Assembly (NCBI GenBank): GCA_902785575.1
Contig: CACZZF010000003.1
Span: 62,001 to 126,000, forward strand
DNA: 64,000 nucleotides
Reading direction: 5' to 3'
DNA from: an uncultured Bacteroidia bacterium
GTDB taxonomy: Bacteria; Bacteroidota; Bacteroidia; Bacteroidales; UBA932
In this document: positions 41,871 to 63,754 of the stretch, piece after piece
Layout of the letters: each line of letters opens with the position of its first letter
Numbering within the stretch: position 1 is the stretch's first letter
Made by a program: the position numbers and the translations under genes
Notes under the pieces: model-generated
Seen by the model: only the letters and a program-made list of their open reading frames with translations
Databases searched by the model: none
Told to the model about the DNA's origin: nothing

Positions 41871-41873
41871 GGC

Positions 41874-44189: not shown

Positions 44190-44198
44190 TTTATATTA

Positions 44199-46991: not shown

Positions 46992-47001
46992 CTTCAAAGG
47001 A

Positions 47002-48165
47002 TTAAATAGCTATATCCTGATTTTTGACGATAAGTTTCTTAAGCGTGTCAACAGAGGCTCCTGTCCTCAAACCGTCAGGGGCCGTGTGGAGGCAATAGTC
47101 AACAAGACGGTCGACTGTAGATGTGGCGACATGCATACGAGTGTCCGAAGAGGCGTAGTAAATGAAAACCTTCCCGTCCGGGTCACAAATCCACCCGTTG
47201 GAAAAGAGGACATTCATAACATCTCCGATATATTCGCCACCCTCGGGAGCCATGAAGAAGCCTGCAGGTTCGGCGATCACCTCAGAGGGATCGTCCAAAG
47301 CGGTCATGTACATATAAAGGACGTAACGCAAGCCGGAGGCGCAACCTCTAACCCCATGCGCCAGATGCAGCCAACCCTGAGGAGTCTTAATAGGATGAGG
47401 CCCTTCACCGTTCTTGCATTCTTTGATAGTGTGGTAGCTCCTGCGGCTCAAAACCTTCTCTTCAGTGATTACCGCATGCTCCATGCTGTCAACCAGCGCC
47501 CAGCCGATTCCCGGGCCGCTTCCAGCGTCGATAAATCCGTCCTGAGGGCGGGTGTACAAGGCATATTTCCCATCCACGAACTCAGGATGGAGGACGACAT
47601 TGCGCTGCTGGTGGGATGAGACTATGTCAGGAAGCCTCTCCCAAGTGATCAGGTCCTTTGTACGAGCTACACCGGCGCTCGCGACAGCCGCTGAGAGGTC
47701 ATCCGGATGCTCCTTATCCTTTCTTTCCACGCAGAATATCCCGTAAATCCATCCGTCCTCATGAGCCGTGAGACGCATGTCATAGACATTCGTGGCAGGT
47801 TCTCCATATTCCGGCATCGTGACAGGATTCGGCCAGAAGCGGAAGTTATCCACACCATTGGGGCTCTCAGCCACAGCGAAGAAAGACTTGCGGTCAGCGC
47901 TCTCAACCCTGGCGACAAGGATATACTTCCCACCGAACTTGATGGCACCGGAATTCATGACGGCGTGGATGCCGAACCTTTCCATCAGATAAGGGTTGGA
48001 CTCCTTATGGAGATCGTAACGCCATTCCAACGGAGCGTGAGCCGCGGTAAGCACCGGATTCACATAGCGCTCGTAAACACCATTACCCTCAATCGGGACA
48101 TTCTTTTTGGAAATAAGTTCCTCATGCGACTTCTTAAGCCGCTCCAATCTCTCTTCGTACGTCAT
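47002..48165 (-). CDS. 4-O-beta-D-mannosyl-D-glucose phosphorylase (GH130)
   Basis: The 387-residue cytoplasmic five-bladed propeller matches GH130 subfamily 1. The general acid Asp129 is in TNVYDMRLT, and the phosphate/sugar site is formed by RPQDGFIDAGSGPGIGW and GEGPHPIKTPQGWLHLAHG. The family splits mannosylglucose with phosphate to alpha-mannose-1-phosphate and glucose. Its presence with a 2-epimerase and a mannobiose-releasing GH26 reproduces the route described for Bacteroides fragilis. The ATG overlaps the GH26 stop by four bases. Confidence 0.92.
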   Translation of the reverse strand: MTYEERLERLKKSHEELISKKNVPIEGNGVYERYVNPVLTAAHAPLEWRYDLHKESNPYLMERFGIHAVMNSGAIKFGGKYILVARVESADRKSFFAVAESPNGVDNFRFWPNPVTMPEYGEPATNVYDMRLTAHEDGWIYGIFCVERKDKEHPDDLSAAVASAGVARTKDLITWERLPDIVSSHQQRNVVLHPEFVDGKYALYTRPQDGFIDAGSGPGIGWALVDSMEHAVITEEKVLSRRSYHTIKECKNGEGPHPIKTPQGWLHLAHGVRGCASGLRYVLYMYMTALDDPSEVIAEPAGFFMAPEGGEYIGDVMNVLFSNGWICDPDGKVFIYYASSDTRMHVATSTVDRLVDYCLHTAPDGLRTGASVDTLKKLIVKNQDIAI

Positions 48166-49253
48166 AACAACACAATTTCTTTCTTCTCACTGAACAGTCT
48201 GAAATCTTCCGCATTCTCAAAGCCTTTCCAGGGACCATAGAAATGGCCGGGGCGATCGTGGGCGTTACGCCACGTAAGCACATAGCAGATGGGGAAACCT
48301 TGAATGGCAGGATAAAGCCTCTCTGTCCACCAATGGGGGTCAGGAATCCCCTCTAGGCCGGTCTCGGAAAGGCACATGAGTTTCGTGTGCTCTTTCGAGA
48401 TCTCGGTAAGAGTGGTGAGCATCTGTTTCAGATTCGCCATATACGCGACACCGGCGGCATCGAGGTCACCGTTGTTATATTCATAAATATCAGTGCCTAA
48501 AATGTCCACAATGTCATCTCCAGGATAACGGGACAGGTAATCCTCCTTGGAAATCGGCCCGTTCGGGGAATAGCACCAAAGCAAATTCTCGACACCCTTC
48601 TCCTCAAGCCTCTCTCGTGTCAGGCGGAATAAGGCTTTATACTGCTCAGCAGAGCATAAATTGCCTCCCCACCAGAACCAGCTTCCGATATTCTCATGCC
48701 AAGGGCGGAATATGACAGGAGCCTTACCGAGACTGTTCAGGAAATCAGCCAGACGATCGAGCCAGACGAGGAATTCCTCGTGTTTTTCTCCTCCATCCAA
48801 GACAGAGGCGACGACCTGATCTGAGGAAATATCCCATGAGTCTCCTCCGGTCAACGGATTACGCAGATGCCATGAGAATGTCACGATTCCTCCCCTGCTC
48901 CTATGGGTCAGGGCAGCCTTGCGGATAAGACCGAAGGGTACACCATCCAGGTTGCAGGTGTCACCCACCTCGATGCCACCGAGATCGAATCCCAGGACAG
49001 CCGGATACTTCCCGGAGACATCCTTAACGTCGGAGCGCTCCAAATCGTCATTCTCCCAGTCTGTGACTTTCCATGCATGGCCGTAGGACAAGTCGTCTTG
49101 ATGACCGTACATGACCTTTCCGGCATCGGCCACCGAAAACAACTGACTAGCCAGGACATGGTCGCCAGGGATATCTTCATCGACAGGCCTCGGGCGCCTG
49201 CCACATCCGAAGATGAACAGTGGAATCATAACCAGAAATAACAGATTTCTCAT
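48162..49253 (-). CDS. GH26 beta-mannanase (mannobiose-releasing type likely)
   Basis: The 363-residue lipoprotein has lipobox Cys17 followed by basic residues (GRRPRP), which favours a periplasmic site. The GH26 catalytic pair is Glu187 in IFRPWHENIG (acid/base) and Glu297 in LSETG (nucleophile). There is no carbohydrate-binding domain. Short single-domain GH26 enzymes directly before GH130 and with an epimerase resemble the B. fragilis enzyme that releases mannobiose from mannan chain ends. The exo mode is inferred from this context. Confidence 0.9.
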   Translation of the reverse strand: MRNLLFLVMIPLFIFGCGRRPRPVDEDIPGDHVLASQLFSVADAGKVMYGHQDDLSYGHAWKVTDWENDDLERSDVKDVSGKYPAVLGFDLGGIEVGDTCNLDGVPFGLIRKAALTHRSRGGIVTFSWHLRNPLTGGDSWDISSDQVVASVLDGGEKHEEFLVWLDRLADFLNSLGKAPVIFRPWHENIGSWFWWGGNLCSAEQYKALFRLTRERLEEKGVENLLWCYSPNGPISKEDYLSRYPGDDIVDILGTDIYEYNNGDLDAAGVAYMANLKQMLTTLTEISKEHTKLMCLSETGLEGIPDPHWWTERLYPAIQGFPICYVLTWRNAHDRPGHFYGPWKGFENAEDFRLFSEKKEIVLL

Positions 49254-49259
49254 GACTTA

Positions 49260-50852
49260 TCAGAATTTTGGTGCGGAATCATAGACATGTTGGAGGGTGT
49301 AGCCATCACTCTCGGTAAACCAAGCCTTCTTTATCACATTGACGACTTCCTTGCTGTTACCGATGTAGGCCCCGGTGCCATGGTTGATATATCCGTGCTG
49401 CTCTTTACCGGTGTCTTTAGCCCCATTATCCCAAAGGAAGCAGGGCAGGCCGTAAGTCTTGGCGGCCTTGACGATGTATTCCATGTAATAGAGATAGAAC
49501 TTCCAGGCTCGGGTGTCGGATTTGGCTCTCATTGAGCATCCGAACTCTCCGATGTAACAAGGAATATTCTTGGAGACATATTCTGTGTTCAGTTTACTGA
49601 AAACATCTTTGACATGCGTCTCGTCGCCTCCATTGGCCTTCTTATCCACAGCCCCTGTGTGACCCCAGTCAGAATACTGGGCGTCTCCGATGGTGTAGTC
49701 GTAGGGATCATAGAAATGCACGGAAACCATCACCTTGCCAGCTTTGTCGGATGGAATCTTCAAGTACTTGGTGAACTCCGGATTGGCGGCATAGGTCGGA
49801 ACACCGAGCCAACGAGTGGCATTCTCCCCACCTGCCGCCCTGACAGCGTCAACAAAGACTTGGTTCCACTCGTTAAGGATATCGCACTGACGGGAAGGAT
49901 TGCTTTGGAAATCAGCGCTCCAGCCCCAGCCACCATCGTTCAGCTCATTGAAACCCTCCATGATGAGCCAGTCACCGCAATCAGCGAACTTGTTGGCTAT
50001 CTGGGTCCAAACCGCCTTTATCTCAGCTTTGATAGTCTCGTTCACAGCGCTGTTGACAGACGCGTTCTTGATGTCCAGCCAATGTTCATCTCCATGGTTC
50101 TCATCATGATGAGTGTTGATGATGACATTCAGTCCCTCAGCATGCGCGAAACCCACGACCTCAAAAACACGATTCAACCATGTCTCATCAATCTTATACT
50201 CAGGAGCTTTGCCGATAAATTTCAGCCAGGTCACGGGGATTCGGACACTGGTGAATCCAGCGGCCTTGACTCCCTTGAATGTCGCCGGAGTGGCCAGCTC
50301 GCCTCCCCAAACCGTCTCGTTCGGATAATCGTACCAGTCAAACCCATTCTCGTCGACATAATGCCAATTGTAGTAAGCGTCAAAATGGTTCCCCATATTC
50401 CAGCCCAATCCTAGTGTCTTGGCCAAAGCCCACGCGTCGTTATCACCAGAAGGAGGAGTCGGAGGATCGACCGGTTTCTCCTTCGCGGCCTGTGAGACAG
50501 TGAAGGTTACTGAGGAAGCTCCAGACGAGGCTACCGTAACAGTGGCTGTCCTGGCATCGTAAGTGTCATTGGCGGCCACTGTCAGTCCAACAGTAATGGA
50601 ATAAGCGTTGAATGTCCCATCGACATAAGTTATCCAAGAAGGCAGCCCTGTGAGTGTTGGACGGGCGGGCGCCTTGATGGTCAACGACAATTTCTCACCA
50701 GGCTGCGCTACCTGGAAAGAGTTGGAACTCAGCGTTATGGATGAAGGTGCCGGATCCGGCTGCGGCGTAGGGTCCGGTTGTTCCTTGCCACAAGAGACTA
50801 GGAAGGCCAAGAGCATGACCGTCAAGGCCAGATGTCTGAATACATTTACCAT
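49260..50852 (-). CDS. BACON-GH5 endo-glycanase lipoprotein
   Basis: From ATG 50852 the protein has 530 residues with lipobox Cys21 and acidic residues after it, a surface-export signal in Bacteroidota. A BACON domain spans about 36-125, followed by a Pro-rich linker and a GH5 barrel from about 140. The acid/base is Glu303 in MEGFNELND and the nucleophile Glu436 in YIGEFG. GWNMGNHFDA and VSVHFYDPYDYT are like GH5 subfamily 4 (endoglucanase, lichenase or xyloglucanase). It might cut the glucose-containing parts of glucomannan. An ATG at 50870 overlaps the previous gene and gives a poorer signal peptide. Confidence 0.87.
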   Translation of the reverse strand: MVNVFRHLALTVMLLAFLVSCGKEQPDPTPQPDPAPSSITLSSNSFQVAQPGEKLSLTIKAPARPTLTGLPSWITYVDGTFNAYSITVGLTVAANDTYDARTATVTVASSGASSVTFTVSQAAKEKPVDPPTPPSGDNDAWALAKTLGLGWNMGNHFDAYYNWHYVDENGFDWYDYPNETVWGGELATPATFKGVKAAGFTSVRIPVTWLKFIGKAPEYKIDETWLNRVFEVVGFAHAEGLNVIINTHHDENHGDEHWLDIKNASVNSAVNETIKAEIKAVWTQIANKFADCGDWLIMEGFNELNDGGWGWSADFQSNPSRQCDILNEWNQVFVDAVRAAGGENATRWLGVPTYAANPEFTKYLKIPSDKAGKVMVSVHFYDPYDYTIGDAQYSDWGHTGAVDKKANGGDETHVKDVFSKLNTEYVSKNIPCYIGEFGCSMRAKSDTRAWKFYLYYMEYIVKAAKTYGLPCFLWDNGAKDTGKEQHGYINHGTGAYIGNSKEVVNVIKKAWFTESDGYTLQHVYDSAPKF

Positions 50853-50856
50853 ACTA

Positions 50857-52299
50857 TCAATACTTGACATCAGAACGAGTTATCACATTAGAGTTTGACA
50901 AAGCCGCGCTCCACCACGAAGTGTCAGGCATATTCGATCCATACCATGGCATGAACCATGACCACTTCGCTCCAGCGGACCAGACCGACGGGATTGTGGC
51001 AAAAGCCTTTGGAGGTTTGGCCCCGGAATCTGTCCCACACTCGCCCAAGGTCACCATCTTGGTCGGATAGGTTGCCTGGATCTCCTTGAATTCCGTGGCA
51101 TTAGCGGAAGCAGTGCTGCCATAAAGGTCCCGTGCGACTATATCCACGTAGGCATCGCCTGGATACCATGCCTTGTCCTGGTTATATTTGGAGGAGTCAC
51201 CGTTGTAGTTCTGTGTGGTCCAGACCCAAATAAGGTTGCGGATACCCTTAGACGCGAAATAGTCGAACATCGCTACCCAAAGCTTCTTATAAACATCAGC
51301 GCCATCATAGCCCCACCAGAACCAAGATTTGGTCCAAGAGGCTTGCTGCTTGTATGTGGAGTTACCGGCAGCTTCGTGGAACGGGCGCCAAATGGCCGCT
51401 ATCCCCTTTTCCTGCAATCCTAAGATCACAGCCGCCACCTTGTCCATCTGGTCATAAAACCACTTGTTCTCCCAGCTGTCTTTCGTGAATACGTTCTGGG
51501 CCTTGAATGTGGTCTCACTTGGAGTACAAGTGACTCCACTGCCATCAGAACCTGGAGAGACGGAAGCGCTCTTGGGCACGTTGAAATGCCACATCAGCGA
51601 GACGATTCCTCCCGCCTCCGCCCACTCGGTGACGGGCTTCAGATCAAAATAATTAATCCAGTTATTCTCAGGAACATAGATATGGATGAAGTCGTAGCAG
51701 TTCATTGCCGGGTACTTTCCTGTGGCAGAATTGACTTTGTCCGCCTCCCGATGGTTCCAGTTTACATCGGCCATGATCGAAGAGATAATCTTCTTTCCAT
51801 ATTGGCTGAGAAGGTACCCGTAAAGCGCTTTGGCCTCATTAGTGGCATTCCCTGTCACCAGAGTCTTGGATATATCAATCTCCTGAGGTTTATCATCTGG
51901 CTTCTCTTCCGGCTCTTCCGGTTCCGCCGGTTTCTGGGCGGCGGCCTGAGAAACAGTGAATGTCTTTGTCAGGTTTCCCGCGGAAATGGTCAGAGACGCT
52001 GTCCTGGGATCATAGGACGTGTTCTCTGCGACTTTCAGGGTGTATGTGATGCTATAATGATTGAAAGTGCCATCCATGACCGTAACCCAAGAGGGAGCTC
52101 CGGTAACAGTCGGCCTGGCAGGGGCAGTCACGGTCAAAGCCAATTCAGAACCCTGAACACCAAAGTTCGCGGATTCCTGGCTCAACGTGAGCGCCGTAGG
52201 GGCCGGATCCTCTTGCGGGGCGATAGGATCATCACCTCCGCAAGAAACCAACATCGCCACGACTGACACCAATAGCAGGCAAGACAGTACTTTCCTCAT
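50857..52299 (-). CDS. BACON-GH26 endo-beta-mannanase lipoprotein
   Basis: The 480-residue precursor has lipobox Cys20 followed by GGDD, a surface-export signal. The BACON domain (about 34-122) resembles that of the GH5 neighbour, including the shared wording APARPT-x-TG. A Glu/Pro-rich linker (122-140) leads to a GH26 barrel with acid/base Glu309 (IWRPFHEAAG) and nucleophile Glu420 (VTLGECGTD). The enzyme is expected to cut beta-1,4-mannan at the cell surface. Its end is 4 bases before the GH5 ATG. Confidence 0.92.
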   Translation of the reverse strand: MRKVLSCLLLVSVVAMLVSCGGDDPIAPQEDPAPTALTLSQESANFGVQGSELALTVTAPARPTVTGAPSWVTVMDGTFNHYSITYTLKVAENTSYDPRTASLTISAGNLTKTFTVSQAAAQKPAEPEEPEEKPDDKPQEIDISKTLVTGNATNEAKALYGYLLSQYGKKIISSIMADVNWNHREADKVNSATGKYPAMNCYDFIHIYVPENNWINYFDLKPVTEWAEAGGIVSLMWHFNVPKSASVSPGSDGSGVTCTPSETTFKAQNVFTKDSWENKWFYDQMDKVAAVILGLQEKGIAAIWRPFHEAAGNSTYKQQASWTKSWFWWGYDGADVYKKLWVAMFDYFASKGIRNLIWVWTTQNYNGDSSKYNQDKAWYPGDAYVDIVARDLYGSTASANATEFKEIQATYPTKMVTLGECGTDSGAKPPKAFATIPSVWSAGAKWSWFMPWYGSNMPDTSWWSAALSNSNVITRSDVKY

Positions 52300-52355
52300 T
52301 TTCTTTTATTTAATTGGATCCCGGAGGGAGGGTCAGCCCCCTCCGGAATAAAATG

Positions 52356-55094
52356 TTATTTGAGAATGACAGCCGTCAGGGTATATCCCTGCCCGGTGAT
52401 CACAAGACCACCATTGGCGATCATCTCATCAAGGATAGCTTGGGTTAGCTCAATCTCGAGTTTGTTCTCCTCATAAAGCTTATAAGGGTCTTCTGTGCCA
52501 GGATGAGCTGCCCATGAACCGTTAGAGAAACGGATCTGAACCTCGTCAGCCGTAGGTGTGAACTCCAATACGATGGTAGTTCCGGCTTCAACTGTGCTCC
52601 AGTCATAGCCACCCCAGGAGAGAGCTGTCATAGCCTTATGGTCGTCACCAAGGCCGCCGGACCAGTCAACCTCGAAAGAACCTTCCCAAATAGGGGTGCC
52701 AACAGGAGCCATCTCTCCAGTAGTGACAAGGTAAACTCCAGTAAGGGTATAGCCCTGGCCGGTGATAACGAGACCGCCGGTAGCGACCATATTGTCCAGA
52801 ATCTCCTTTGTCAACTCTATCTCGAGTTTGCTCTCTCCATAGAGCTTGTAAGGATCCGGGGTGCCCGGATGAGCGGCCCAGGAGCCATTGGAGAAACGGA
52901 TCTGAACCTCATCAGCCGTAGGAGTGAACTCAAGGACGATCTTCGTTCCAGCCTCAACGGTGCTCCAATCGTAGCCACCCCATGAGAGAGCGGTCATGGC
53001 CTTGTTGTCTTCTCCTGCTCCACCACTCCAATCAACGACCTGGGAGCCCTCCCAGATGGCGGTCTTCTCCTCGACAGCGCCAAACTGGATGAGTGAGATA
53101 CGGGTGATCTCAATATTACCGTCACCATTGATGATGAAGGCATTGCCCCAAGTGTCAATCTTGGTCAGCTGGGCCAGGATCTCGGGCGTAACCGCAAAGG
53201 AGAACATCTGGCTTCCGCTAGGATAGAAATCACTCTTGATCTCATTACCACCATCAAGCTCGGGGACAGAGAGGTTGGACCAGTGTCCATCCACAAGCTG
53301 GATGTCCCACCAGTTACCTTCAGGAGCGTTGAAGTATACACGTACGACATCACTCTCCTTGATTCCGGCATTGATGAAAGCGTCCTGCTCAGCAAAGCCC
53401 TTTCCACTCCAACCAGTCACGATTTCACTGCCTTCCCAGATAGTCTTCTCGGTGAAAGGAGCGGTGATCTCGAACGGGACAGGCCATGTCATCTCAGTGC
53501 CGTCAACCAGAACCATTGCCAGACGATAAACGCCAGGGCCTATTCCTTCAGGTATGTCGAATGACATATTATCGTCACCGCGGACAGCATAGGAAACAAC
53601 CTTCTTGCCCTTGATGAACATCTGCTCCACATTCAGGAGATTCTTTCCGGTTATGGCTATCTTCTTTCCGAGAGCGAATGAAGGCTGGGCGAAAGTCACT
53701 GAAACCGCCTCGTCGTAGGTGACGGTAATGGCTTCGGTAGCGGTGTTGTCTCCATTGGCGGCGGTAAGGGTGAGAGGACCCGTGTAAGCGTCTTTCGGGA
53801 CAGCCACCTTTACGGAATCAGCGGTCAGGATATCGAACTTACAGTCAATGAATCCGTGTTCCTTATCACCAATCGTGACACCAGTGACAAGATCGAGATC
53901 GGTACCGGTGACGACGATATTGGTCTGGCCGGCCACAGCCTCATTCTTGTCAACAGCGGTGGCCACAGGCTTGACAACAGCGATCTCGGAGCTGTAGGCC
54001 TGCTTCCCGGAAGCGAGAGTAACGGTGAGACCGCCATCCTTGGCACCAGCAGGGACAGTGGCGACGATGTTTTCACCATCGAGATACCACTGGGCCTCGG
54101 CACCAGTGAACTCAACCTTCGTGACAAGGTCAAGATCGGAACCGGTGATCGACACGTCTGAGCCAGCCTTGTAGCGTCCGTCCTCAGCGAGCGACGCGAC
54201 CTCAAGGTCGGTCACATTCAGAGAGATGATCGCTCCGGCCTGGAACTCCTTACCCGCGAATGAGGTGAGGACTATCTGGCCGTCGCCAGCGGAAGGCGGA
54301 AGATTGAAACTGATTGAATTACCATCCTCGGCGAGCTTGAATTCAACATCAGCGGCGCCTGTCAGGTTGATTTTCTCAATCATCTCCAGATGGGATCCGG
54401 AGACGGTGATGACATCACCGCTCTTGTATGTGGTGGTGTCAGCAACAGCGACGGTAGGATCTCCGACCACAAGCTCGGTACCAGAATAGATCTGGTTCGG
54501 AATAGTGTTCTGATCCTCAATCTCGTTGACATCACCTATAATGACATAACCGGAAACCGCGTTAGCGGGAACCTTGAAGGAAAGCTCACTGCCAGACTGG
54601 CTGTTGAACTCAGTGACATAGACACCACCTCCGAGGATAACTTCCCTGACATTGTTCAGATATTCACCCTTGATGGTGACAACGTCTCCGGACAAGACTG
54701 TCGCCGGAGCGAAAGAGCTGAAAACGATCGGCTCGGTGTACTCCAGGTCAAATCTGGTGGAAGCGGTGAGGCCATCGCTTGTGACAACAGTGACAGGGCC
54801 TACAGCGGCATCCATAGGGACAGTGAGACGGATCTCACTACGCTCGCCGGCAGCGACCTTCTCTATGGAAGTGACTGTCGCTCCGCCCGCGAAGCGGACC
54901 TCCGTCACTTTGTCGAGATTGGCACCGATGACGCGAAGCTGGGCGCCCCTCATCACGGGGTTCGGAGCGATCGCGGCAAGGGCGAGCTTACCGGCATACT
55001 GGTCAGTGTCCAGTTCTTCCTGCTGGCAAGCGGTCAAGCCTGACATCGCGACAATAAGAGTCGCGAGAATGGAATATTTAAATATATTCTTCAT
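52356..55094 (-). CDS. IPT/TIG multi-domain surface glycan-binding protein with repeated C-terminal modules
   Basis: The 912-residue lipoprotein (lipobox Cys23, then QQEELD) sits in the SusE/SGBP position. Residues from about 40 to 560 form a chain of six or so IPT/TIG Ig-like domains, with recurring phrases such as GxxLDxVTxVxF. The C-terminus has three carbohydrate-binding-like modules that each begin with an xIWEGS-x-xxxWSG motif. The last two are close copies sharing ALSWGGYDWSTVEAG and VQIRFSNGSWAAHPGT. Together they should hold mannan at the cell surface and extend it away from the membrane. The binding target is inferred from the locus. A 56-bp gap precedes the GH26 gene. Confidence 0.85.
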   Translation of the reverse strand: MKNIFKYSILATLIVAMSGLTACQQEELDTDQYAGKLALAAIAPNPVMRGAQLRVIGANLDKVTEVRFAGGATVTSIEKVAAGERSEIRLTVPMDAAVGPVTVVTSDGLTASTRFDLEYTEPIVFSSFAPATVLSGDVVTIKGEYLNNVREVILGGGVYVTEFNSQSGSELSFKVPANAVSGYVIIGDVNEIEDQNTIPNQIYSGTELVVGDPTVAVADTTTYKSGDVITVSGSHLEMIEKINLTGAADVEFKLAEDGNSISFNLPPSAGDGQIVLTSFAGKEFQAGAIISLNVTDLEVASLAEDGRYKAGSDVSITGSDLDLVTKVEFTGAEAQWYLDGENIVATVPAGAKDGGLTVTLASGKQAYSSEIAVVKPVATAVDKNEAVAGQTNIVVTGTDLDLVTGVTIGDKEHGFIDCKFDILTADSVKVAVPKDAYTGPLTLTAANGDNTATEAITVTYDEAVSVTFAQPSFALGKKIAITGKNLLNVEQMFIKGKKVVSYAVRGDDNMSFDIPEGIGPGVYRLAMVLVDGTEMTWPVPFEITAPFTEKTIWEGSEIVTGWSGKGFAEQDAFINAGIKESDVVRVYFNAPEGNWWDIQLVDGHWSNLSVPELDGGNEIKSDFYPSGSQMFSFAVTPEILAQLTKIDTWGNAFIINGDGNIEITRISLIQFGAVEEKTAIWEGSQVVDWSGGAGEDNKAMTALSWGGYDWSTVEAGTKIVLEFTPTADEVQIRFSNGSWAAHPGTPDPYKLYGESKLEIELTKEILDNMVATGGLVITGQGYTLTGVYLVTTGEMAPVGTPIWEGSFEVDWSGGLGDDHKAMTALSWGGYDWSTVEAGTTIVLEFTPTADEVQIRFSNGSWAAHPGTEDPYKLYEENKLEIELTQAILDEMIANGGLVITGQGYTLTAVILK
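52360..53055 (-). repeat. tandem duplication of a 110-residue binding module
   Basis: Two adjacent units, about 52360-52710 and 52711-53055, encode modules that agree over most of their length. The DNA differs mainly at third codon positions, so the copies have been kept under selection and are not a very recent slip. A third, more divergent unit lies upstream (about 53056-53450). Confidence 0.8.
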
Positions 55095-55109
55095 ATTCAG
55101 TTCCTCCTA

Positions 55110-56414
55110 TTATTTGTAAGGGACAGCGCGGATGTTGTCGATCTTGATGACCGGCTGGCACTCAGTTCCAGTCACGCCGCCACTCCACACGAAGATGGTG
55201 AGGGAAGAGAAGGAAGCGGGAGTAATCTCCGCTGTGTTAGCGGTTCCGTCAGACTTATAAGCGAAATCAGTGTAAGGGATGGTGACAGTCACCCACTTGT
55301 CGCCAGTATCGAACGAACCGCTTGACTTCCAAGGAATATACAGCGCGCGGGGAGCCTGAGGCACACCGTCGCCGCTTATGAACTTGTTGTTAGCTCCGGC
55401 GGTGACATTGCCATCTTTGTCAACCGCGCCTTCGGCACCACCAGTGACGACATCAACGCCTCCGATGATGATCTGCATCGCTCCAGCCTTCCAGGCATTG
55501 GCACTGGGGATATAAAGCTCGAACTTTAGAGCCATATTCTTCCAGTTGGTGAAATCGACAAAGTCGGTAAGGCGGGGGCTGTCAGCATAAGAGACAGGAT
55601 CGTCCCAATCACCGGGCCAGTACTCGAAGGAGAAGTTGCCATCTTTCCAGCCACCCTCAGCGTCCAGGGTGACATCAACGCCACCAAGACGGAGGAAGTT
55701 GCCGGAGAGGGCTGTCTCATCGGTCTCAACGACCTGAGCGTGCCAACCATGGTTGGTCGGGTGAGGATCGTTATCGAAATTGAACAGCATTCCTCTGGAA
55801 TCCTTGTACATGAACACTGACTGGGCGGTTCCGGAAGAGGTGGTAACCTTGATCTTTCCGGGCTGGGCGCCTTCAGGAACGACCACGGTGACGGACGAGC
55901 CGTCTCCAGCGGTGGCGGTAACGGGATCCACACCGGGGAACTCAACCTCGACAGGAGCGAAGAGGTAAGATCCGTTGATCGTGACAGTCTCTCCGGGCTG
56001 CGCCCACTCAAGTGACATTGTGGAGATCTTCGGAGCGGGAGGCAGGACCTTGAAATCATAGGTCACTTGCTGGCCATCCTTGGTGATCAGATAGATCTTG
56101 TCGGTCTGATCGACCGGCATTGTCTTGGGAACAGCGACAACGAGAGTCTTAGCCGTAATGAAACTGGTGTTCAGTATGGCGGGCTGGTCGTTGAAATAGA
56201 CGTCGTGGATGCTGGTGAGGTTATCACCGACGATGCACACGATCTCCTCCATATTGGCCTGGGTGATGACAACATCCTTGTTGGCATAGCGGATAAAATC
56301 CACTGTGGGGACTCCCGATGTCTGGACAAAACGGTCCGGATAATCAACGGAGTCGCAGGCAGCCAGAAGGACCGCACCCAGGAGAAGGCTTGTGTATATT
56401 GTCTTAACTTTCAT
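55110..56414 (-). CDS. IPT/TIG surface glycan-binding lipoprotein
   Basis: The 434-residue precursor has lipobox Cys20 followed by an Asp-containing stretch. Two IPT/TIG domains (about 35-125 and 128-205) precede a C-terminal glycan-binding domain (about 208-434) rich in Trp and Asp, with FEYWPGDWDDP and NWKNMALKFELYIP. It follows SusD by 11 bp and so is the first SGBP of the locus. It probably works with SusCD as a surface capture protein for mannan chains. No catalytic motif is visible. Confidence 0.85.
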   Translation of the reverse strand: MKVKTIYTSLLLGAVLLAACDSVDYPDRFVQTSGVPTVDFIRYANKDVVITQANMEEIVCIVGDNLTSIHDVYFNDQPAILNTSFITAKTLVVAVPKTMPVDQTDKIYLITKDGQQVTYDFKVLPPAPKISTMSLEWAQPGETVTINGSYLFAPVEVEFPGVDPVTATAGDGSSVTVVVPEGAQPGKIKVTTSSGTAQSVFMYKDSRGMLFNFDNDPHPTNHGWHAQVVETDETALSGNFLRLGGVDVTLDAEGGWKDGNFSFEYWPGDWDDPVSYADSPRLTDFVDFTNWKNMALKFELYIPSANAWKAGAMQIIIGGVDVVTGGAEGAVDKDGNVTAGANNKFISGDGVPQAPRALYIPWKSSGSFDTGDKWVTVTIPYTDFAYKSDGTANTAEITPASFSSLTIFVWSGGVTGTECQPVIKIDNIRAVPYK

Positions 56415-56425
56415 CTTTTCTCGAA

Positions 56426-58204
56426 TTAAAAGTCATAAGAATAAGTCTCGCGGACATCGACATGGACCGATTCGGCAGTTGAGCCAACGTTCGGATTCAT
56501 AACCACATCTTCAGTCGGGAACGGCATGTAGAACATCGAAGGCTTGACATCCGTCAGCTCCTGGTCAGCGTTGTAAGTGACGCCGGAGGTATCCCAGGCG
56601 CGGGCGCCAGGACCGACATAGTTCTCCTGGGCGTCGGTGACAAACTGCTTGTAAAGACCGTCGAGGCCATTATAGCCAGAGCGTTTCTGGGCAAGGAGGT
56701 CAGCGATACAAGCGTTGGCATCATAGTATGAGCGACGTACATAATCGTACCAGCGGTCTCCCTCGAGAGCGAGCTCAAGGCGGCGCTCTTTCCAGATATC
56801 ATCATAAGTGACACTGGTCAAAGGCTTCGCGTGAGCCCTCTCACGGATCTTGTTGACATACTCCAGAGCCGTGGCGGAGTCACCAGTAAGAAGAGCGGCT
56901 TCGGCATAGACAAGATAGATGTCACCCAAGCGAAGTATGTGAGTGGGAAGCTGGTTGTACATACCGAATGAAGGATAGCCGAAAGCGGCCACATGGTCAG
57001 CCACGTCACCATAGATATGCTTGGCATAATTGGCTCCGGTCTGGCAACCGAAAGTCTTGTTGGAAGCATTGGTGTCGAAACCTCCCGGGCAATAGCTGGG
57101 ATCATAGAAGAAACGGTAAAAATCAAAGCCGCCCTTATCTGTCCAGAAATAGTCATAGAAGTCACCGAACATCATCATAGTGGCTTGACGACGGTCATCC
57201 ACATCTTTCCTTTCCTCGGGATTCTCGATAGCGGAAACTCCGAAAGCGGACTGAAGATCGACAGTGGGGCCTTTCCAGTCACCCCAGAGATTGCCGTTCT
57301 CGTCGAATCCGACATTACCCACATCGCACTGGATGGAGTTCTGGGATGTCCAGTTCTCCTCCTTGCACTGCCAATGCCAAGTGAAGAGGCACTCGCCAGT
57401 CTGCTGGAACTTGTCCGGAGTCATCCTGAAAATGTCAGAATACTTAGGAGTAAGGCTACGACCCGAGTTCTTGATCACATCCTCAGCATACCTCTTGGCG
57501 GCAACCAGGTCATTCTGGTCAAGAGATCCGTTGACACCGGCCTTAGTCAGATAAACCTTGGAAAGAAGAGCCTCGGCGGCATAGTAGTCGATCCTGTTAA
57601 GCTTGCCGATGTAAGCGTTCTTGGGAAGGAGCTCGAGGGCTTTCTCAAGAGTCAGGACGATATATTCGTAAACGTCCGCCTTCTGGACCTTGCTGACCTC
57701 GTTGTAGGTGGCTTCCTTGATAACCTCGGTGTTGTCGTGGATAATAGGAACGTCACCGAAGGTGCGGACCAAAAGGAAATAAGCCATGGCCTTCCATGCG
57801 AGCGCCTCGCCTATGCAACGGTTCTTCGTGGCCTGGGAAGCGTTTCCATCAGCCTCGAGGATATTCTTGATAACAGTGTTGCACTGCGCGTTGACAGCCC
57901 AAAGTGAGTAGGACATATTCTTAAGATCCTGGTCGGTACCGTTGACTGTAAGGGTAGTATAGGCGTTTTGCCCCTGATACACGTTACCGCACATTGTCTC
58001 GGATCCGTAAATATAGAAACGGATGATGTCGTACCAAGGAGAGTTATAGAGGTAATTGATACCCTGCTCCACCTGCGCGTCATTCTTATAGAAATCGCCG
58101 GTTGTGAAGCTATCCTCGGAAGGACGGTCCAGGAACTTCTCGCATGAGGAGGCGCCAAAGGCGATGACAATCGCCACGATAATATATTTCAATGCGTTTT
58201 TCAT
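56426..58204 (-). CDS. SusD-like glycan-binding lipoprotein
   Basis: The 592-residue precursor starts at ATG 58204, preceded by GGAGGACAAGAAA, although an ATG five codons upstream (58219) is also open. The lipobox gives Cys21 (GASSCEKFLDRP). The RagB/SusD fold is shown by its TPR-like helices (AKRYAEDVI, GEALAWKAMAYFLLVRTFGDVP) and the C-terminal RRLELALEGDRWYDYVR and FPTEDVVMNP. It forms the lid over the SusC channel. It begins 16 bp after SusC. Confidence 0.95.
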   Translation of the reverse strand: MKNALKYIIVAIVIAFGASSCEKFLDRPSEDSFTTGDFYKNDAQVEQGINYLYNSPWYDIIRFYIYGSETMCGNVYQGQNAYTTLTVNGTDQDLKNMSYSLWAVNAQCNTVIKNILEADGNASQATKNRCIGEALAWKAMAYFLLVRTFGDVPIIHDNTEVIKEATYNEVSKVQKADVYEYIVLTLEKALELLPKNAYIGKLNRIDYYAAEALLSKVYLTKAGVNGSLDQNDLVAAKRYAEDVIKNSGRSLTPKYSDIFRMTPDKFQQTGECLFTWHWQCKEENWTSQNSIQCDVGNVGFDENGNLWGDWKGPTVDLQSAFGVSAIENPEERKDVDDRRQATMMMFGDFYDYFWTDKGGFDFYRFFYDPSYCPGGFDTNASNKTFGCQTGANYAKHIYGDVADHVAAFGYPSFGMYNQLPTHILRLGDIYLVYAEAALLTGDSATALEYVNKIRERAHAKPLTSVTYDDIWKERRLELALEGDRWYDYVRRSYYDANACIADLLAQKRSGYNGLDGLYKQFVTDAQENYVGPGARAWDTSGVTYNADQELTDVKPSMFYMPFPTEDVVMNPNVGSTAESVHVDVRETYSYDF

Positions 58205-58220
58205 TTTCTTGTCCTCCATT

Positions 58221-61200
58221 CTAGAAAGTGAGATTAAGACCGAAAGAACAAGTCATAGGAGAAGGATAACGTCCGTTGTCAACTCCGAAAGTGAGTCCGG
58301 ATGAATCCTGCGTGGAGGCTCCGACCTCAGGGTCGAATCCCATGTACTTGGTGAAAGTGTAAAGGTTCTGAATATTCGTGTAGAGCCTTATGTTGTCGAC
58401 TTTGATCTTGGTGAGAAGCTTCTTAGGGAAGGTATATCCCAAAGTTATGTTCTTGATTCTCAAGTAGCTTCCGTCCTCGATGTAACGGGTGCTGAGACGG
58501 TCATTGTCGTTAGGGTCCTGGATGGACGGACGAGGAGTCATAGTTCCAGAGTTGGAGACCTTGACATTGGTGATATCGTCTTGCCACCATGAACCATCAG
58601 CATAGGTCTTCTGGGGATCTATCTGGACAAGTTTAGCCCTGTCAGCGATAGAAGTGTGCTGGTTGGTCCAAGTGCTGTTCATATGCACGAGACCGTTGTA
58701 GCCCTGCCCCATCATGTTGTAGTTGAGAACCTTGTTACCATAAGATCCATTAATGAATATCGAGAGATCGAAATTCTTGTAACTGAAGGAGTTAGTCCAT
58801 CCATAGGTGAACTTGGGAAGAGGAGAACCAATGTTGGTGCGGTCAAGCTCGTTGATGACACCATCACCATTGACATCCTCAAACTTGAGGTCACCAACCC
58901 ACACGGTGGTATAACGGTTGAATACTCCGTCAGCAGGATATTTCTCAGCCTTAGGAGACCTCTGGATGTCCTCCAGTGACTCATAAACGCCAAGGACCTT
59001 GTAGCCGTAGAAGTTATAGAGGGACTCCCCTATCTCGGTCACTGATACGACATCACTCCACTGGCCATAGCCGACGAGGTTGGCGTTGGCGCTACCGTCG
59101 AGGGCGACAAGTTTGTTGCGGTTGAAGGAAATCTGGAAGTTGCTGTTCCAGGAGAAATCCTTGGTCTGGATCGGATGGGTGTCCAGAGTGATCTCAAGAC
59201 CCTTGTTCTCGATGGTACCGTAGTTTCCCTTAGGGGCGGCGAGAGCGGAGGAGCCGTTACCCTGGGTACCCATATATGAAGGAAGGGTCATCGACATGAG
59301 CATGTCGGATGATATCTTCCTGTAAAGGTCGACGGTAAGGTTGATCCTGCTGTCAAGGAAGCTCAAATCGAAACCGAGGTTTGTCTGGTGCTGCTTCTCC
59401 CAGTGGATACCAGTGTTGGAGATGTTTGCCGGACGCTGGCTGTCACCAAGTCCGGTCGGCATCTTGGACATGCCGGACTCCCAGGCGCCACCACCGATGT
59501 TGGCGTTACCTGTCTGTCCCCAACCGATACGGATCTTACCGCTGTTCAGGCCGATGGAGTTGGTGAAATCCTTCAGGAACTCCTCATTGGTGAACCTCCA
59601 GCTTCCAGCGAAGGAATGGAAAGGAGCCCAACGGTTATCCGGTCCGAAGTTCGAGGAACCGTCATAACGGAAAGTATAAGTGAAGAGGTAGCGATCGTCA
59701 AAATTATAAGTCTCACGGGTGAAGAACGACGCCATGGCCGCGCTTCCGAAACCTGAGTTGACGGTAGGGTTACCTGTAGCAAGTTTGATATTGTGGATAT
59801 CATCTGAAGGAAGACCGGTGTTATTGGCGCCAAGGTAGTTCCATCTGGACTCCCAAGCTTCCTGACCGGCCATAGCCGTGACACTATGCTTACCGAAGGT
59901 GTTGGAGTAGGTCAGATAGTTCTTGATTGACCAATAGGTACTTCCATTACGCTGTGAACCCATGCTGTTGTTACCCCTCTGCCAGCCTCCGAGATTAACC
60001 ATCGGCTTGTAGAAGGTGGACTCGGAATTACTCACATCGAAACCGACCTCGCTTCTGAGCGTGAAGTGCTTGATGGGGGTGAGGTCAGCATAGACATTAC
60101 CTGTCAATTTCTGACGCTTCAGGAGGTTTTCGTCAAGCATTGCGAGGGCGACAGGGTTGGCGGAGGTGTAACCCTCACGGACAGTTGTCGAATAATTCCC
60201 GTCAATATCATAGACAGGAATATCGGGAAGAGTGGAGAGGGAGTAGAAGATCACACCCTCTTGACCGTCGGCCAACTTGATATTATCGTTCGTGACAGCA
60301 TACGTGGCGTTAAGTCCGAGTTTGAACCACTCCTTGAGCTGCGCGTCAAGGTTGGAACGGAAGGAGATACGGTTGAAGCTGGAACCGATAATTGTTCCCT
60401 GCTGATCCATATAAGAACCTGACACATAGTACTGGACCTTCTCGGTACCACCCTGGGCACTGACCTGATGCTGGTGCTGGAGAGCGGTACGGAAGACCTC
60501 ATCCTGCCAATTGGTTCCCTTTCCGAGAATGGAAGGATCAGCGTACCATGAGTTGGCGTCGACAAGTCCGAGATCCACCATATCATTGTAGTACTCAGCG
60601 AATTGACGGAGGTTCATCATATCGATGCGGCTGGTCTGCCTCGAGAGAGCGAACATTCCGTCATAAGAGAATTTCGCGTCTCCGGCCTTACCGTGCTTGG
60701 TCGTGATGAGAACGACACCATTAGCGCCTTGCGCTCCATAGATAGCGGTCGCGGAAGCGTCCTTGAGGATTTCCATCGAGACGATATCGGCAGGGTTGAT
60801 AGTGGCGAGCGGGGAGATCGTGGAGACCTTACCGTTACCAAGTGTTCCCAGACCGAAGTCCCAACCGGAGTTACCGCCACCCTGGACGATCACACCGTCG
60901 ATGACGTAAAGAGGCTCAGCGTTGGCGTTGACAGTAGCCTGTCCACGAACGCGGATAGAAGATGAGGAACCAGGAGCTCCTGAAGTCTGAACCGCGGAAA
61001 CTCCAGCGGCACGTCCCTGCAGGGACTGGTCGAGGTTCGTGATGATCGATCCCTTCAGGTCTTCCTCCCTCATTGAGACGGAGGCTCCGGAAAGGTCGCT
61101 CCTTTTCATTGTACCGTATCCCACGACAACAACCTCATCGAGGAACTCGGCGTCTTCCTTAAGGAGGACATCGATCACCGTACGGTTGCCGACAGGGATC

Positions 61201-61436
61201 TCTTGGGTAGCATAACCGATGGAAGAGAACACCAGAGTGGCGCCTGAACGCACTGTAATGGTGTACTTACCATCAAGGTCTGTGACAGCACCGTTGGAGG
61301 TGCCTTTCTCCATGACACTGGCTCCGATCACCCCCTGTCCGGTGTCGTCTGTGACAACACCGACCACCTTGACCTGAGCGGACAAGGTTACGGTCGCGAA
61401 AAGCGCCAGCATGATGGCTAACAGCTTGTGTTTCAT
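58221..61436 (-). CDS. SusC-like TonB-dependent transporter
   Basis: The 1071-residue outer-membrane protein has a signal peptide, a carboxypeptidase-D-like domain (about 22-95, VKVVGVVTDDTGQGVIGASV), a TonB-box-like EVVVVGYGTMKRSDLSGA, a plug with IRVRGQATVNANAEPLYVIDG and a 22-strand barrel ending in a C-terminal Phe (GLNLTF). It imports oligosaccharides with SusD using TonB energy. Only 13 bp separate it from the upstream GH5 gene. Confidence 0.96.
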   Translation of the reverse strand: MKHKLLAIMLALFATVTLSAQVKVVGVVTDDTGQGVIGASVMEKGTSNGAVTDLDGKYTITVRSGATLVFSSIGYATQEIPVGNRTVIDVLLKEDAEFLDEVVVVGYGTMKRSDLSGASVSMREEDLKGSIITNLDQSLQGRAAGVSAVQTSGAPGSSSSIRVRGQATVNANAEPLYVIDGVIVQGGGNSGWDFGLGTLGNGKVSTISPLATINPADIVSMEILKDASATAIYGAQGANGVVLITTKHGKAGDAKFSYDGMFALSRQTSRIDMMNLRQFAEYYNDMVDLGLVDANSWYADPSILGKGTNWQDEVFRTALQHQHQVSAQGGTEKVQYYVSGSYMDQQGTIIGSSFNRISFRSNLDAQLKEWFKLGLNATYAVTNDNIKLADGQEGVIFYSLSTLPDIPVYDIDGNYSTTVREGYTSANPVALAMLDENLLKRQKLTGNVYADLTPIKHFTLRSEVGFDVSNSESTFYKPMVNLGGWQRGNNSMGSQRNGSTYWSIKNYLTYSNTFGKHSVTAMAGQEAWESRWNYLGANNTGLPSDDIHNIKLATGNPTVNSGFGSAAMASFFTRETYNFDDRYLFTYTFRYDGSSNFGPDNRWAPFHSFAGSWRFTNEEFLKDFTNSIGLNSGKIRIGWGQTGNANIGGGAWESGMSKMPTGLGDSQRPANISNTGIHWEKQHQTNLGFDLSFLDSRINLTVDLYRKISSDMLMSMTLPSYMGTQGNGSSALAAPKGNYGTIENKGLEITLDTHPIQTKDFSWNSNFQISFNRNKLVALDGSANANLVGYGQWSDVVSVTEIGESLYNFYGYKVLGVYESLEDIQRSPKAEKYPADGVFNRYTTVWVGDLKFEDVNGDGVINELDRTNIGSPLPKFTYGWTNSFSYKNFDLSIFINGSYGNKVLNYNMMGQGYNGLVHMNSTWTNQHTSIADRAKLVQIDPQKTYADGSWWQDDITNVKVSNSGTMTPRPSIQDPNDNDRLSTRYIEDGSYLRIKNITLGYTFPKKLLTKIKVDNIRLYTNIQNLYTFTKYMGFDPEVGASTQDSSGLTFGVDNGRYPSPMTCSFGLNLTF

Positions 61437-61449
61437 GCTTTACTTGTTT

Positions 61450-62712
61450 TTATTGATATGATTGTGATTGTTTGATTACCTCTATTGTGGTATCAGTTAT
61501 ATATACTCCATTGAGTCCCTGAGCCTCTTGGGCAGGGTCTCCTGTGTAGTCGTCTCCAGTTTCCCACTGAGAGTGGGCAGGGTTGGCGAAACCGCTCCAA
61601 CCCCAGAAATTCAATCCGTCAAGGACATCTCCGACAAGACCAAAGATATGCTTGTAATACTTGTCACGACATGTGGTGGACGCTTCCCTGCTGTCTGAAA
61701 ATCCATCCCTCGGGAAACCGAACTCCTCAACCACGATGGGAAGCCCGAGCCTCTCGGCGAGCTCCACATGCTTTTTTATATAATCATCGGTATTGGCGAT
61801 GGCGGCATCCAAATCCTCAGATAAGCTCTCCGCTTTCGCCCAGCCCCAGTTGTAGGGCCAGATGTGGATTGTCATATAGTCGACTCCAGGGATGGAATTG
61901 ACCTGCTCAAGAAGGACAGGATCGCTCTCGCAGCCCATTAGTCCTTCATTTCCGGTCGATAGAAGATGGTTAGGATCTATCTCCTTAATGATCTTGGCGG
62001 TCTCGGTCATCCAGCCGATGAAACCAGACCTGATCTCAGGATCATCAGAAAAACAACGAGGCTCATTGCCGATCTGCCATGAGAATATCGCGGGATCATC
62101 CTTATAAGGTTTGCCGGTAATCGAGTTAATCCTACCTACAATCGCGCGTACGTGATTAAAGAAGAGTTCCTGTGCTGGCTTTGAAGTCTGGAACTTCCTC
62201 ATCTGCTGCATGAAAGGCCAGTAGCCATCCACCAGCGGGATAAGGGCCTTCTCCCCTGTCGCCCATTCGAGATACTGACCATATCCTCCGGACCACTCCC
62301 AGGAATTGTTAAGATACAAGACAGCCTGCATGTCCCTCTTGCCAAGCTCCACAAGGAAGCGGTCAAGACCTGACAGAAGGGTGTCGTTATACACACCGGG
62401 AGCTGTCTGCAAAGCAGGATCGACACGGGAAAACACACCGTCAGGTCCATCTCCACCCACAAGGACACGGAGATTCTCAAGCCCGAGAGCCTTCAGGGCG
62501 TCCAGTTCTTTGCATAGACGTTCGATATTCCCTCCACGTCCTTCGGAGGCAAGTATGGGACCGTACCAGAAATTGGTGCCCACGAAAGTGTAGGGCTGCC
62601 CATGTCGAAGAAAACGGCCGTCGCTTACACGAGTGAAATCCGCCTCACGCGCGCAAGAGACTAGCATAAAAAATGTGACCGCAAGAGCGATCCTGGAAAA
62701 CGAAAACTTCAT
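61450..62712 (-). CDS. GH5 (subfamily 7-like) beta-mannanase lipoprotein
   Basis: From ATG 62712 the protein has 420 residues with lipobox Cys20 followed by AREAD. The GH5 barrel starts directly (VSDGRFLRHGQPYTFVGTNFWYG), with catalytic Glu217 in WQIGNEPRC and Glu330 in VVEEFGF. This wording is that of subfamily 7 mannanases. It is the first gene after the operon promoter and before SusC, an uncommon place for an endo-enzyme in a utilisation locus. A TTG eight codons upstream is rejected because it would extend the signal peptide and overlaps the leader. Confidence 0.92.
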   Translation of the reverse strand: MKFSFSRIALAVTFFMLVSCAREADFTRVSDGRFLRHGQPYTFVGTNFWYGPILASEGRGGNIERLCKELDALKALGLENLRVLVGGDGPDGVFSRVDPALQTAPGVYNDTLLSGLDRFLVELGKRDMQAVLYLNNSWEWSGGYGQYLEWATGEKALIPLVDGYWPFMQQMRKFQTSKPAQELFFNHVRAIVGRINSITGKPYKDDPAIFSWQIGNEPRCFSDDPEIRSGFIGWMTETAKIIKEIDPNHLLSTGNEGLMGCESDPVLLEQVNSIPGVDYMTIHIWPYNWGWAKAESLSEDLDAAIANTDDYIKKHVELAERLGLPIVVEEFGFPRDGFSDSREASTTCRDKYYKHIFGLVGDVLDGLNFWGWSGFANPAHSQWETGDDYTGDPAQEAQGLNGVYITDTTIEVIKQSQSYQ

Positions 62713-62750
62713 GTTGGCCAAACATAATAGTGTCAATCGCGAAATTATTT

Positions 62751-62774
62751 GTATTCGTTTGTGAGTACAAATAC
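62751..62774. promoter_or_regulatory. 24-bp palindrome at the mannan operon start site
   Basis: GTATTCGT and ACAAATAC form inverted arms (one mismatch) around 8 bases. The block overlaps the last base of the -7 box and the expected transcription start of the GH5-SusC operon, so a repressor or other DNA-binding protein could act here. Confidence 0.45.
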
Positions 62775-62801
62775 AAAATTAGCATAATATGATACTATTT
62801 T
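62774..62801 (-). promoter_or_regulatory. mannan operon promoter with AAAATAGTATCA motif
   Basis: On the minus strand AAAATAGTATCA (62801-62790) is followed after exactly 8 bp by TAATTTTG (62781-62774), a -7 box. No TTTG lies at -33. The ATG is 61 bp further on. The same 12-mer with the same spacing lies before the AraC gene. Confidence 0.65.
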
Positions 62802-62806
62802 GACCG

Positions 62807-63691
62807 CTAAACGAAGATGCGTGTTTTCTTGAACAAGGTACGGAAATCCCGTGGGGTATATTCCCTCTTCGCCTTGAACAAACGGTTGAAATTGGAAAGG
62901 TTGTTAAAACCGCAACTATAGCATATCTCAGAGATGCTATTTGTCGTGTCCACAAGCATGCGGGCGGCATTGCCAAGACGTATGTCAATGATATAATCAC
63001 TCAGCGCCCGGCCGGTCCGAAGATGGAAGAACCGGCTGAAAGCCGAAGGAGACATCCCGACAAGGGAAGAGAGCATCCCGAGGCTGAGATCCTCGGCGTA
63101 ATGGTCATTAATGTACTGCTTGACTTTCATCACCCTACGGCTCTCCTTATCCCTGACGGCACGGGCAAAGGAGCTGCTTGCCAAGATCCTGGAATCCTCG
63201 GCCCTGGACAGCTCATAGATGATTTTCATGAAGTGGAGATACTGGTCAAATGGCTCTGTGTCAGACGAAAGGTTATCCAGCAGTGAATACACTTTCATGA
63301 TTGTCTTTACCGAGAATGTCAGCCCATGGCCAGCCTTGGAGAGCATCTTGCTGATGGAAGAGAACTGGCTCTTATTCAATAAGATATCAGGGAAAATATC
63401 AGGAGAGAACTGGATCGTGATCTCGCGCACATCCGGCTCGACGCAGCTTCCCTGCTCCCAAGCGTGCTCAAGCTCATTGCCGGCGACTAATGTCAACTCA
63501 TAAGGGCCGATCTCCTCGACACTGTCCCCGACAACCCGACGGACTCCCTGGCCATTCTCTATGAAATTGAGCTCATAGTCCCGATGCGAGTGCAGGGGGA
63601 AAAGAAACTCGGACTTGTGACGCTCCACGATATACAGGCAATCTTTGTCCGTAATGGGGGTGATTTCTTTCAGTACGGTATTAGTCGGCAT
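62807..63691 (-). CDS. AraC-family transcriptional regulator of the mannan locus
   Basis: The 294-residue protein has an N-terminal cupin-like sensor domain (about 20-100, HSHRDYELNFIENGQG) and a C-terminal pair of helix-turn-helix motifs (DLSLGMLSSLVGMSPSAFSRFF and NSISEICYSCGFNNLSNFNRLF) ending in the AraC consensus PRDFR. It is not a hybrid two-component or SusR protein, so it probably senses a soluble sugar in the cytoplasm. It lies 94 bp upstream of the operon on the same strand, and its promoter shares the AAAATAGTATCA motif, suggesting common control. Confidence 0.9.
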   Translation of the reverse strand: MPTNTVLKEITPITDKDCLYIVERHKSEFLFPLHSHRDYELNFIENGQGVRRVVGDSVEEIGPYELTLVAGNELEHAWEQGSCVEPDVREITIQFSPDIFPDILLNKSQFSSISKMLSKAGHGLTFSVKTIMKVYSLLDNLSSDTEPFDQYLHFMKIIYELSRAEDSRILASSSFARAVRDKESRRVMKVKQYINDHYAEDLSLGMLSSLVGMSPSAFSRFFHLRTGRALSDYIIDIRLGNAARMLVDTTNSISEICYSCGFNNLSNFNRLFKAKREYTPRDFRTLFKKTRIFV

Positions 63692-63694
63692 GCG

Positions 63695-63722
63695 CGAATA
63701 TAAGAAATTTTGATACTATTTT
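63695..63722 (-). promoter_or_regulatory. AraC gene promoter with AAAATAGTATCA motif
   Basis: AAAATAGTATCA (63722-63711) is followed after 8 bp by TATATTCG (63702-63695), one base off TAnnTTTG. This box ends 3 bp from the ATG at 63691, so the mRNA would be nearly leaderless. Confidence 0.55.
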
Positions 63723-63754
63723 CACAAGTGTCGAGTAAGTTATGGAAGTATTAG

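Follow-up and report, generated by a model that had tools for sequence, protein, structure and literature searches.

The window (the whole stretch of DNA analysed, 64,000 nucleotides) carries on its minus strand a beta-mannan utilisation operon directly after the gene for an AraC-family regulator. The nearest named record for this regulator is its counterpart in the uncultured Bacteroidales isolate RUG790, with which it shares 96% identity. We infer that the genes at 40551..61436 form a single transcription unit with the GH5-like gene onward. The features of the locus, in the direction of transcription, are as follows.

63711..63725, minus: predicted araC-promoter half-site GTGAAAATAGTATCA, containing the second copy of a repeated 12-mer; present within 1 mismatch in 26/30 orthologues
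63695..63702, minus: predicted araC -7 box TATATTCG, ending 3 nt before the ATG
62807..63691, minus: AraC-family regulator gene, 294 aa, cupin-like sensor domain and two helix-turn-helix motifs (HTH_18, AlphaFold2 model, Foldseek)
62789..62804, minus: predicted upstream half-site of the operon operator, GTCAAAATAGTATCAT, containing the 12-mer; N42 spacing to the -7 box conserved (column conservation, held-out test)
62768..62783, minus: predicted second, downstream half of the operon operator, GCTAATTTTGTATTTG, offset by 21 bp from the upstream half; direct-repeat signal at shift 21 only
62768..62771, minus: TTTG, where the downstream half-site ends on its 3' side; candidate -33 element with 20 bp to the -7 box; conserved columns, consensus from PMC7366714
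62740..62747, minus: predicted operon -7 box TAATTTCG, exactly 42 bp from the 12-mer; TAnnTTTG in relatives
61450..62712, minus: first operon gene, GH5-like lipoprotein (Pfam Cellulase match below the curated cut-off)
40551..61436, minus: remaining beta-mannan operon, namely SusC, SusD, SGBP (surface glycan-binding protein), TIG protein, GH26, GH5, GH26, GH130, GH31, GH3 and a cellobiose 2-epimerase-like gene

In the epimerase gene, an in-frame insertion (40705-40835, minus) encoding LLCHSERSPELVEGRSEE... splits the match to the epimerase domain and looks like a translated intergenic repeat, and the GH31 enzyme (44199-46997, minus) has a GLEYA domain inserted ahead of its catalytic domain.

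As modelled, the regulator has the canonical architecture of the AraC/XylS family. The C-terminal domain contains two helix-turn-helix motifs, as seen in the HTH_18 match (E 2.9e-19), in the helices of the model and in Foldseek matches to 2k9s and 3mn2. The N-terminal domain is cupin-like and of the sugar-sensing type, with beta-rich residues 5-95 and helices in the AlphaFold2 model (pLDDT 83); in Foldseek it weakly resembled AraC (2arc) and RhaR (5u93), and it is presumably cytoplasmic. Only HTH/AraC-type families were found in the 294-aa protein, which places it outside the hybrid two-component systems (HTCS), in which an AraC domain is joined to a periplasmic sensor, a histidine kinase and a receiver.

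The repeated 12-mer and its conservation

The sequence-only reading of the window had pointed to one 12-mer occurring twice on the same strand, each time 8 bp from a putative -7 box. Both exact copies of AAAATAGTATCA were confirmed at 62790-62801 and 63711-63722 on the minus strand, from which the operon and araC are also read. The 8-bp gaps to TAATTTTG and TATATTCG are real as measured. No other copy occurred in the window, even at one mismatch (0.15 expected with one mismatch allowed). The 3.05-Mb genome had three exact copies, versus none for a reversed control, and 15 matches at one mismatch or fewer, versus 19 for the control. The third exact copy (C20:35210) lies 7 bp ahead of an unrelated gene and lacks both a -7 box and the G otherwise conserved at position -3. 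This copy and the twelve one-mismatch genomic copies were considered and rejected, being mostly unrelated or intragenic and lacking the promoter geometry.

The footprinting set consisted of 30 homologous-regulator loci, nearly all of them same-genus orthologues, drawn from 100 relatives; overall, the comparison covered these 30 orthologous loci and 80 further homologous loci. Within the 150 bp upstream of the regulator, AAAAWAGTATCA was present within one mismatch in 26 of the 30 loci (shuffled mean 0.35, maximum 1), the araC-side sites being inverted in three of the loci (L022, L024 and L027). On the operon side, it was found after the regulator stop codon in 13 of the 30 loci versus 0.175 in shuffles. 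The alignment lengthens the 12-mer to GTnAAAAWAGTATCA, in which the G at -3 is nearly invariant, and by this conservation the repeated 12-mer is the real, conserved core of a longer predicted site. Among more distant homologues, approximately 40% had no recognisable operator beside araC, and in G009 and G088, whose AraC proteins are 49% and 39% identical, no site lay within one mismatch. In one close relative (L018), the DNA upstream of araC differs and synteny is lost, yet a one-mismatch motif persists 29 bp away from another -7 box.

Predicted operon operator and promoter

The operon operator has the form of a direct repeat with a 21-bp pitch, with the 12-mer in the upstream half and GnTAAATTTGTATTTG as the second half. 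In the operon-side alignment, the second conserved block, GnTAAATTTGTATTTGTTTG, is followed by an unconserved 16-bp spacer and then TAnnTTTGC; among the orthologues, the operator columns are conserved and the spacer columns are not. The profile match was positive only at shift 21 (shifts from 12 to 33 were tried), a value reached by none of 5000 column permutations, and an inverted-repeat arrangement, also tried, gave a weaker signal. In relatives from Bacteroides, TAAAATAGTATCA is itself the downstream half-site, and the two halves therefore appear to be variants of one recognition word. The pitch of about 21 bp, the fixed spacing to the promoter and the abutment of the downstream half on the -33 element are those of an AraC-type direct-repeat operator.

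Across relatives the -7 box of the operon is found 42 bp from the 12-mer, at 62740-62747 (TAATTTCG), and not at TAATTTTG, to which the sequence-only reading had assigned it. With one mismatch to TAnnTTTG and a TTTG -33 element 20 bp upstream, TAATTTCG fits a Bacteroidetes primary-sigma promoter; the promoter consensus and the centring of the -7 box used here are those of PMC7366714. TAATTTTG (62774-62781) forms the middle of the second half-site and fits TAnnTTTG in a few close relatives only. The -7 score entered into the choice of the operon-side anchor, and so that alignment is no independent test of the spacing. As an independent test, 75 further homologous loci were taken from GTDB genomes after removal of identical and very close copies, the operator model was built without the -7 box, and an operator was accepted if it beat at least 98% of shuffles. 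Operators were found in 43 of these 75 held-out loci. In 37 of the 43, a -7 box stood at precisely the native spacing of 42 bp; no other offset between -12 and +12 had more than one. Taking the -7 box as centred at -7 (PMC7366714) would put the operon start site near 62736 and give a 5' UTR of about 24 nt, close to the 23 nt that is the commonest 5' UTR length in B. thetaiotaomicron (PMC7366714).

araC promoter side

At the araC promoter we found TATATTCG only, with no clear -33 element. The claim that neither promoter has a TTTG -33 element fits araC and was not confirmed for the operon, where TTTG is present at 62768-62771. Likewise, the placement of the motif in the -33/-7 spacer may be right for araC, where the half-site lies over the core promoter, and is wrong for the operon, where the 21-bp repeat lies upstream of the -33 element and abuts it, as would suit an activator. 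The araC side usually has one strong half-site, at a variable position over the core promoter, and the distance from motif to box elsewhere is 6-9, 16-18, 21 or 29 bp. Because the araC-side spacing differs elsewhere and TAATTTTG belongs to half-site 2, the identical 8-bp spacing at the two promoters reads as a coincidence of the window clade.

The starts of forward araC-side sites cluster at about -34, -43 and -55 from the predicted transcription start, which corresponds to about one helical turn per step (R 0.63 at 10.5 bp for loci L016-L045 and L119-L198, whose lineages are not independent). Relative to the operon half-sites, their phase is shifted by about 3 bp. Of 58 offsets tested for a second half-site, +21 was the best, with a weak signal. 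The helical phase of the forward sites with the -7 box could reflect contact with polymerase instead of plain occlusion. The Bacteroides araC-side site has the opposite orientation and, at about +2 to +18, directly follows the -7 box on its 3' side; judged by this geometry, all it could do is block transcription.

Six close relatives keep the 3-nt gap from the araC -7 box to the ATG (63689-63702, minus), with a motif-box gap that varies from 6 to 9. Since the -7 box ends 3 nt ahead of the ATG, the araC mRNA is probably leaderless in the window clade. Leaderless mRNA is rare in Bacteroides.

Sites outside the main locus

Counted by hand, GNNAAAAWAGTATCA had 34 matches in genomes of the same genus, 27 of them at the araC locus, and the reversed control had 11. 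Two of the other seven lay beside mannan genes on other contigs, one was antisense inside a GH5 gene and four were beside unrelated genes. The two mannan-gene matches were in G056, which has a full operator at a GH26-GH130 operon divergent from the epimerase, with N42 to TAATTTTG, and in G012, where the match lies beside the epimerase and is cut by the contig end. The remaining matches, at unrelated genes in G005, G011, G044 and G055 and antisense in the GH5 gene of G003, were judged to be chance. The same operator with one mismatch, again with N42, was found ahead of GH26-GH130 in G021 (L114, G021:C53), where this operon, like that of G056, is detached from the main locus, and in G078, from another family, this operator precedes susC beside a 46% identical AraC, with N42 to TACATTTG. 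The best AraC match in G021 is only 33% identical, and the orthologue may be missing from this draft, which is 77% complete. Genus genomes without the regulator orthologue had two unrelated matches in about 29 genomes. The site is thus almost confined to loci with this AraC and follows it into another family.

Proposed mechanism and alternatives

The model that we consider probable overall has the stand-alone AraC regulator switching on the beta-mannan operon and limiting its own gene, the motifs being its predicted half-sites. The regulator encoded between the two motifs in all probability binds them; the earlier suggestion that the motif is the site of the AraC protein is strongly supported, at the operon and at the regulator's own gene, by its co-conservation with the regulator. 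Activation of the beta-mannan operon by this protein is very probable. A regulator dimer would occupy the two operon half-sites, at about -68 to -53 and -47 to -32 from the predicted start, and the ligand-bound dimer would touch RNA polymerase and turn on the operon from GH5-SusC-SusD onward. The gene content of the operon makes a mannan-derived cytoplasmic sugar the presumed ligand, and a mannan-derived ligand is likely. At araC, occupancy of the single half-site over the -33/-7 region would limit expression, giving negative autoregulation. Activation at one promoter and autorepression at the other are suggested by the rigid spacing of the operon site and by the mobility of the araC-side site, which occurs in either orientation. 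Of the "joint activation or autoregulation" proposed before, autoregulation would thus stand, and joint activation would not, the araC-side placement fitting autorepression better.

As to the sign of this autoregulation, we lean modestly towards autorepression over autoactivation. Positive autoregulation, in which the regulator would also activate araC from the araC-side half-site, draws on the helical phase of the forward sites (about -34, -43 and -55) with the araC -7 box and on the weak second half-site at +21. It is rather unlikely, given that the position and orientation of the site vary, that the site overlies the -33/-7 spacer in the window clade, that the phase is about 3 bp off that of the operon half-sites and that the Bacteroides site is inverted just 3' of the -7 box. 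A different arrangement, which we regard as quite improbable, is that without ligand one dimer bridges the araC-promoter half-site and the upstream operon half-site, 921 bp apart across araC, shutting both promoters, and that ligand shifts the dimer to the 21-bp repeat. If true, Bacteroidetes would have a light switch of the araO2-araI1 type whose loop encloses the regulator gene.

The model of the sequence-only reading, joint activation from within the -33/-7 spacer at both promoters, agrees with the 8 bp that separate both motifs from a -7-like octamer in this genome. It is very improbable, however, because conservation puts the operon -7 box at 42 bp and not at 8, TAATTTTG varies freely inside the 21-bp repeat unit, and the spacing on the araC side is variable. 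Recognition of the motif by some other, global regulator, with the linkage to araC being incidental, is hardly plausible when only two unrelated matches occur in the approximately 29 genus genomes without an orthologue, the sites track the AraC protein across a family boundary, and the regulon is extended by mannan genes. The chance of an AT-rich 12-mer being repeated by accident is negligible: one unrelated third genomic copy speaks for it, whereas the 0.15 copies expected in the window at one mismatch and the conservation across dozens of loci speak against it.

Relation to known systems

Predicted operators of HTCS in Bacteroides thetaiotaomicron, whose DNA-binding domains are likewise of AraC type, are direct repeats with an average of 21 bp, and the HTCS_Man sites are of 16 bp with a 5-bp spacer (PMC3878776). 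The present operator resembles them in being a 21-bp direct repeat upstream of PUL operons, a likeness in geometry. Unlike in HTCS, the AraC protein here stands alone, with a cupin-like sensor, and is no membrane hybrid two-component system, and, in contrast to HTCS_Man, the locus concerns beta- instead of alpha-mannan and has an extra site at the regulator's own gene.

The araI1-araI2 operator of araBAD in E. coli (PMC4760080) is similar. There, too, tandem half-sites lie two helical turns apart, with the proximal half abutting the -33/-35 element, and, as with E. coli AraC, the regulator here is predicted also to act at its own gene. The present system differs from araBAD in having a Bacteroidetes promoter, and no distal loop site or CRP site was identified here. 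The beta-mannan PUL Bacova_02087-97 of B. ovatus likewise has GH26 and GH130 under its own regulator, Bacova_02097, reported in PMC5094572 to bind undecorated beta-mannan oligosaccharides; no description of an operator for Bacova_02097 was found. We found no account of the present operator in the literature searched, most subscription journals being outside its reach. The predicted switch, acting on a plant-mannan operon, is of a familiar type that, for the present regulator, is not described in the searched literature.

These results predict a precise operator and promoter through which a stand-alone AraC protein would control beta-mannan use. This regulator is widespread among Bacteroidales of rumen and gut and is also found in Bacteroides, Parabacteroides and Phocaeicola. 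Regulon members are predicted beyond the main locus, and the rigid 42-bp spacing would represent a defined inducible promoter architecture for Bacteroidales.
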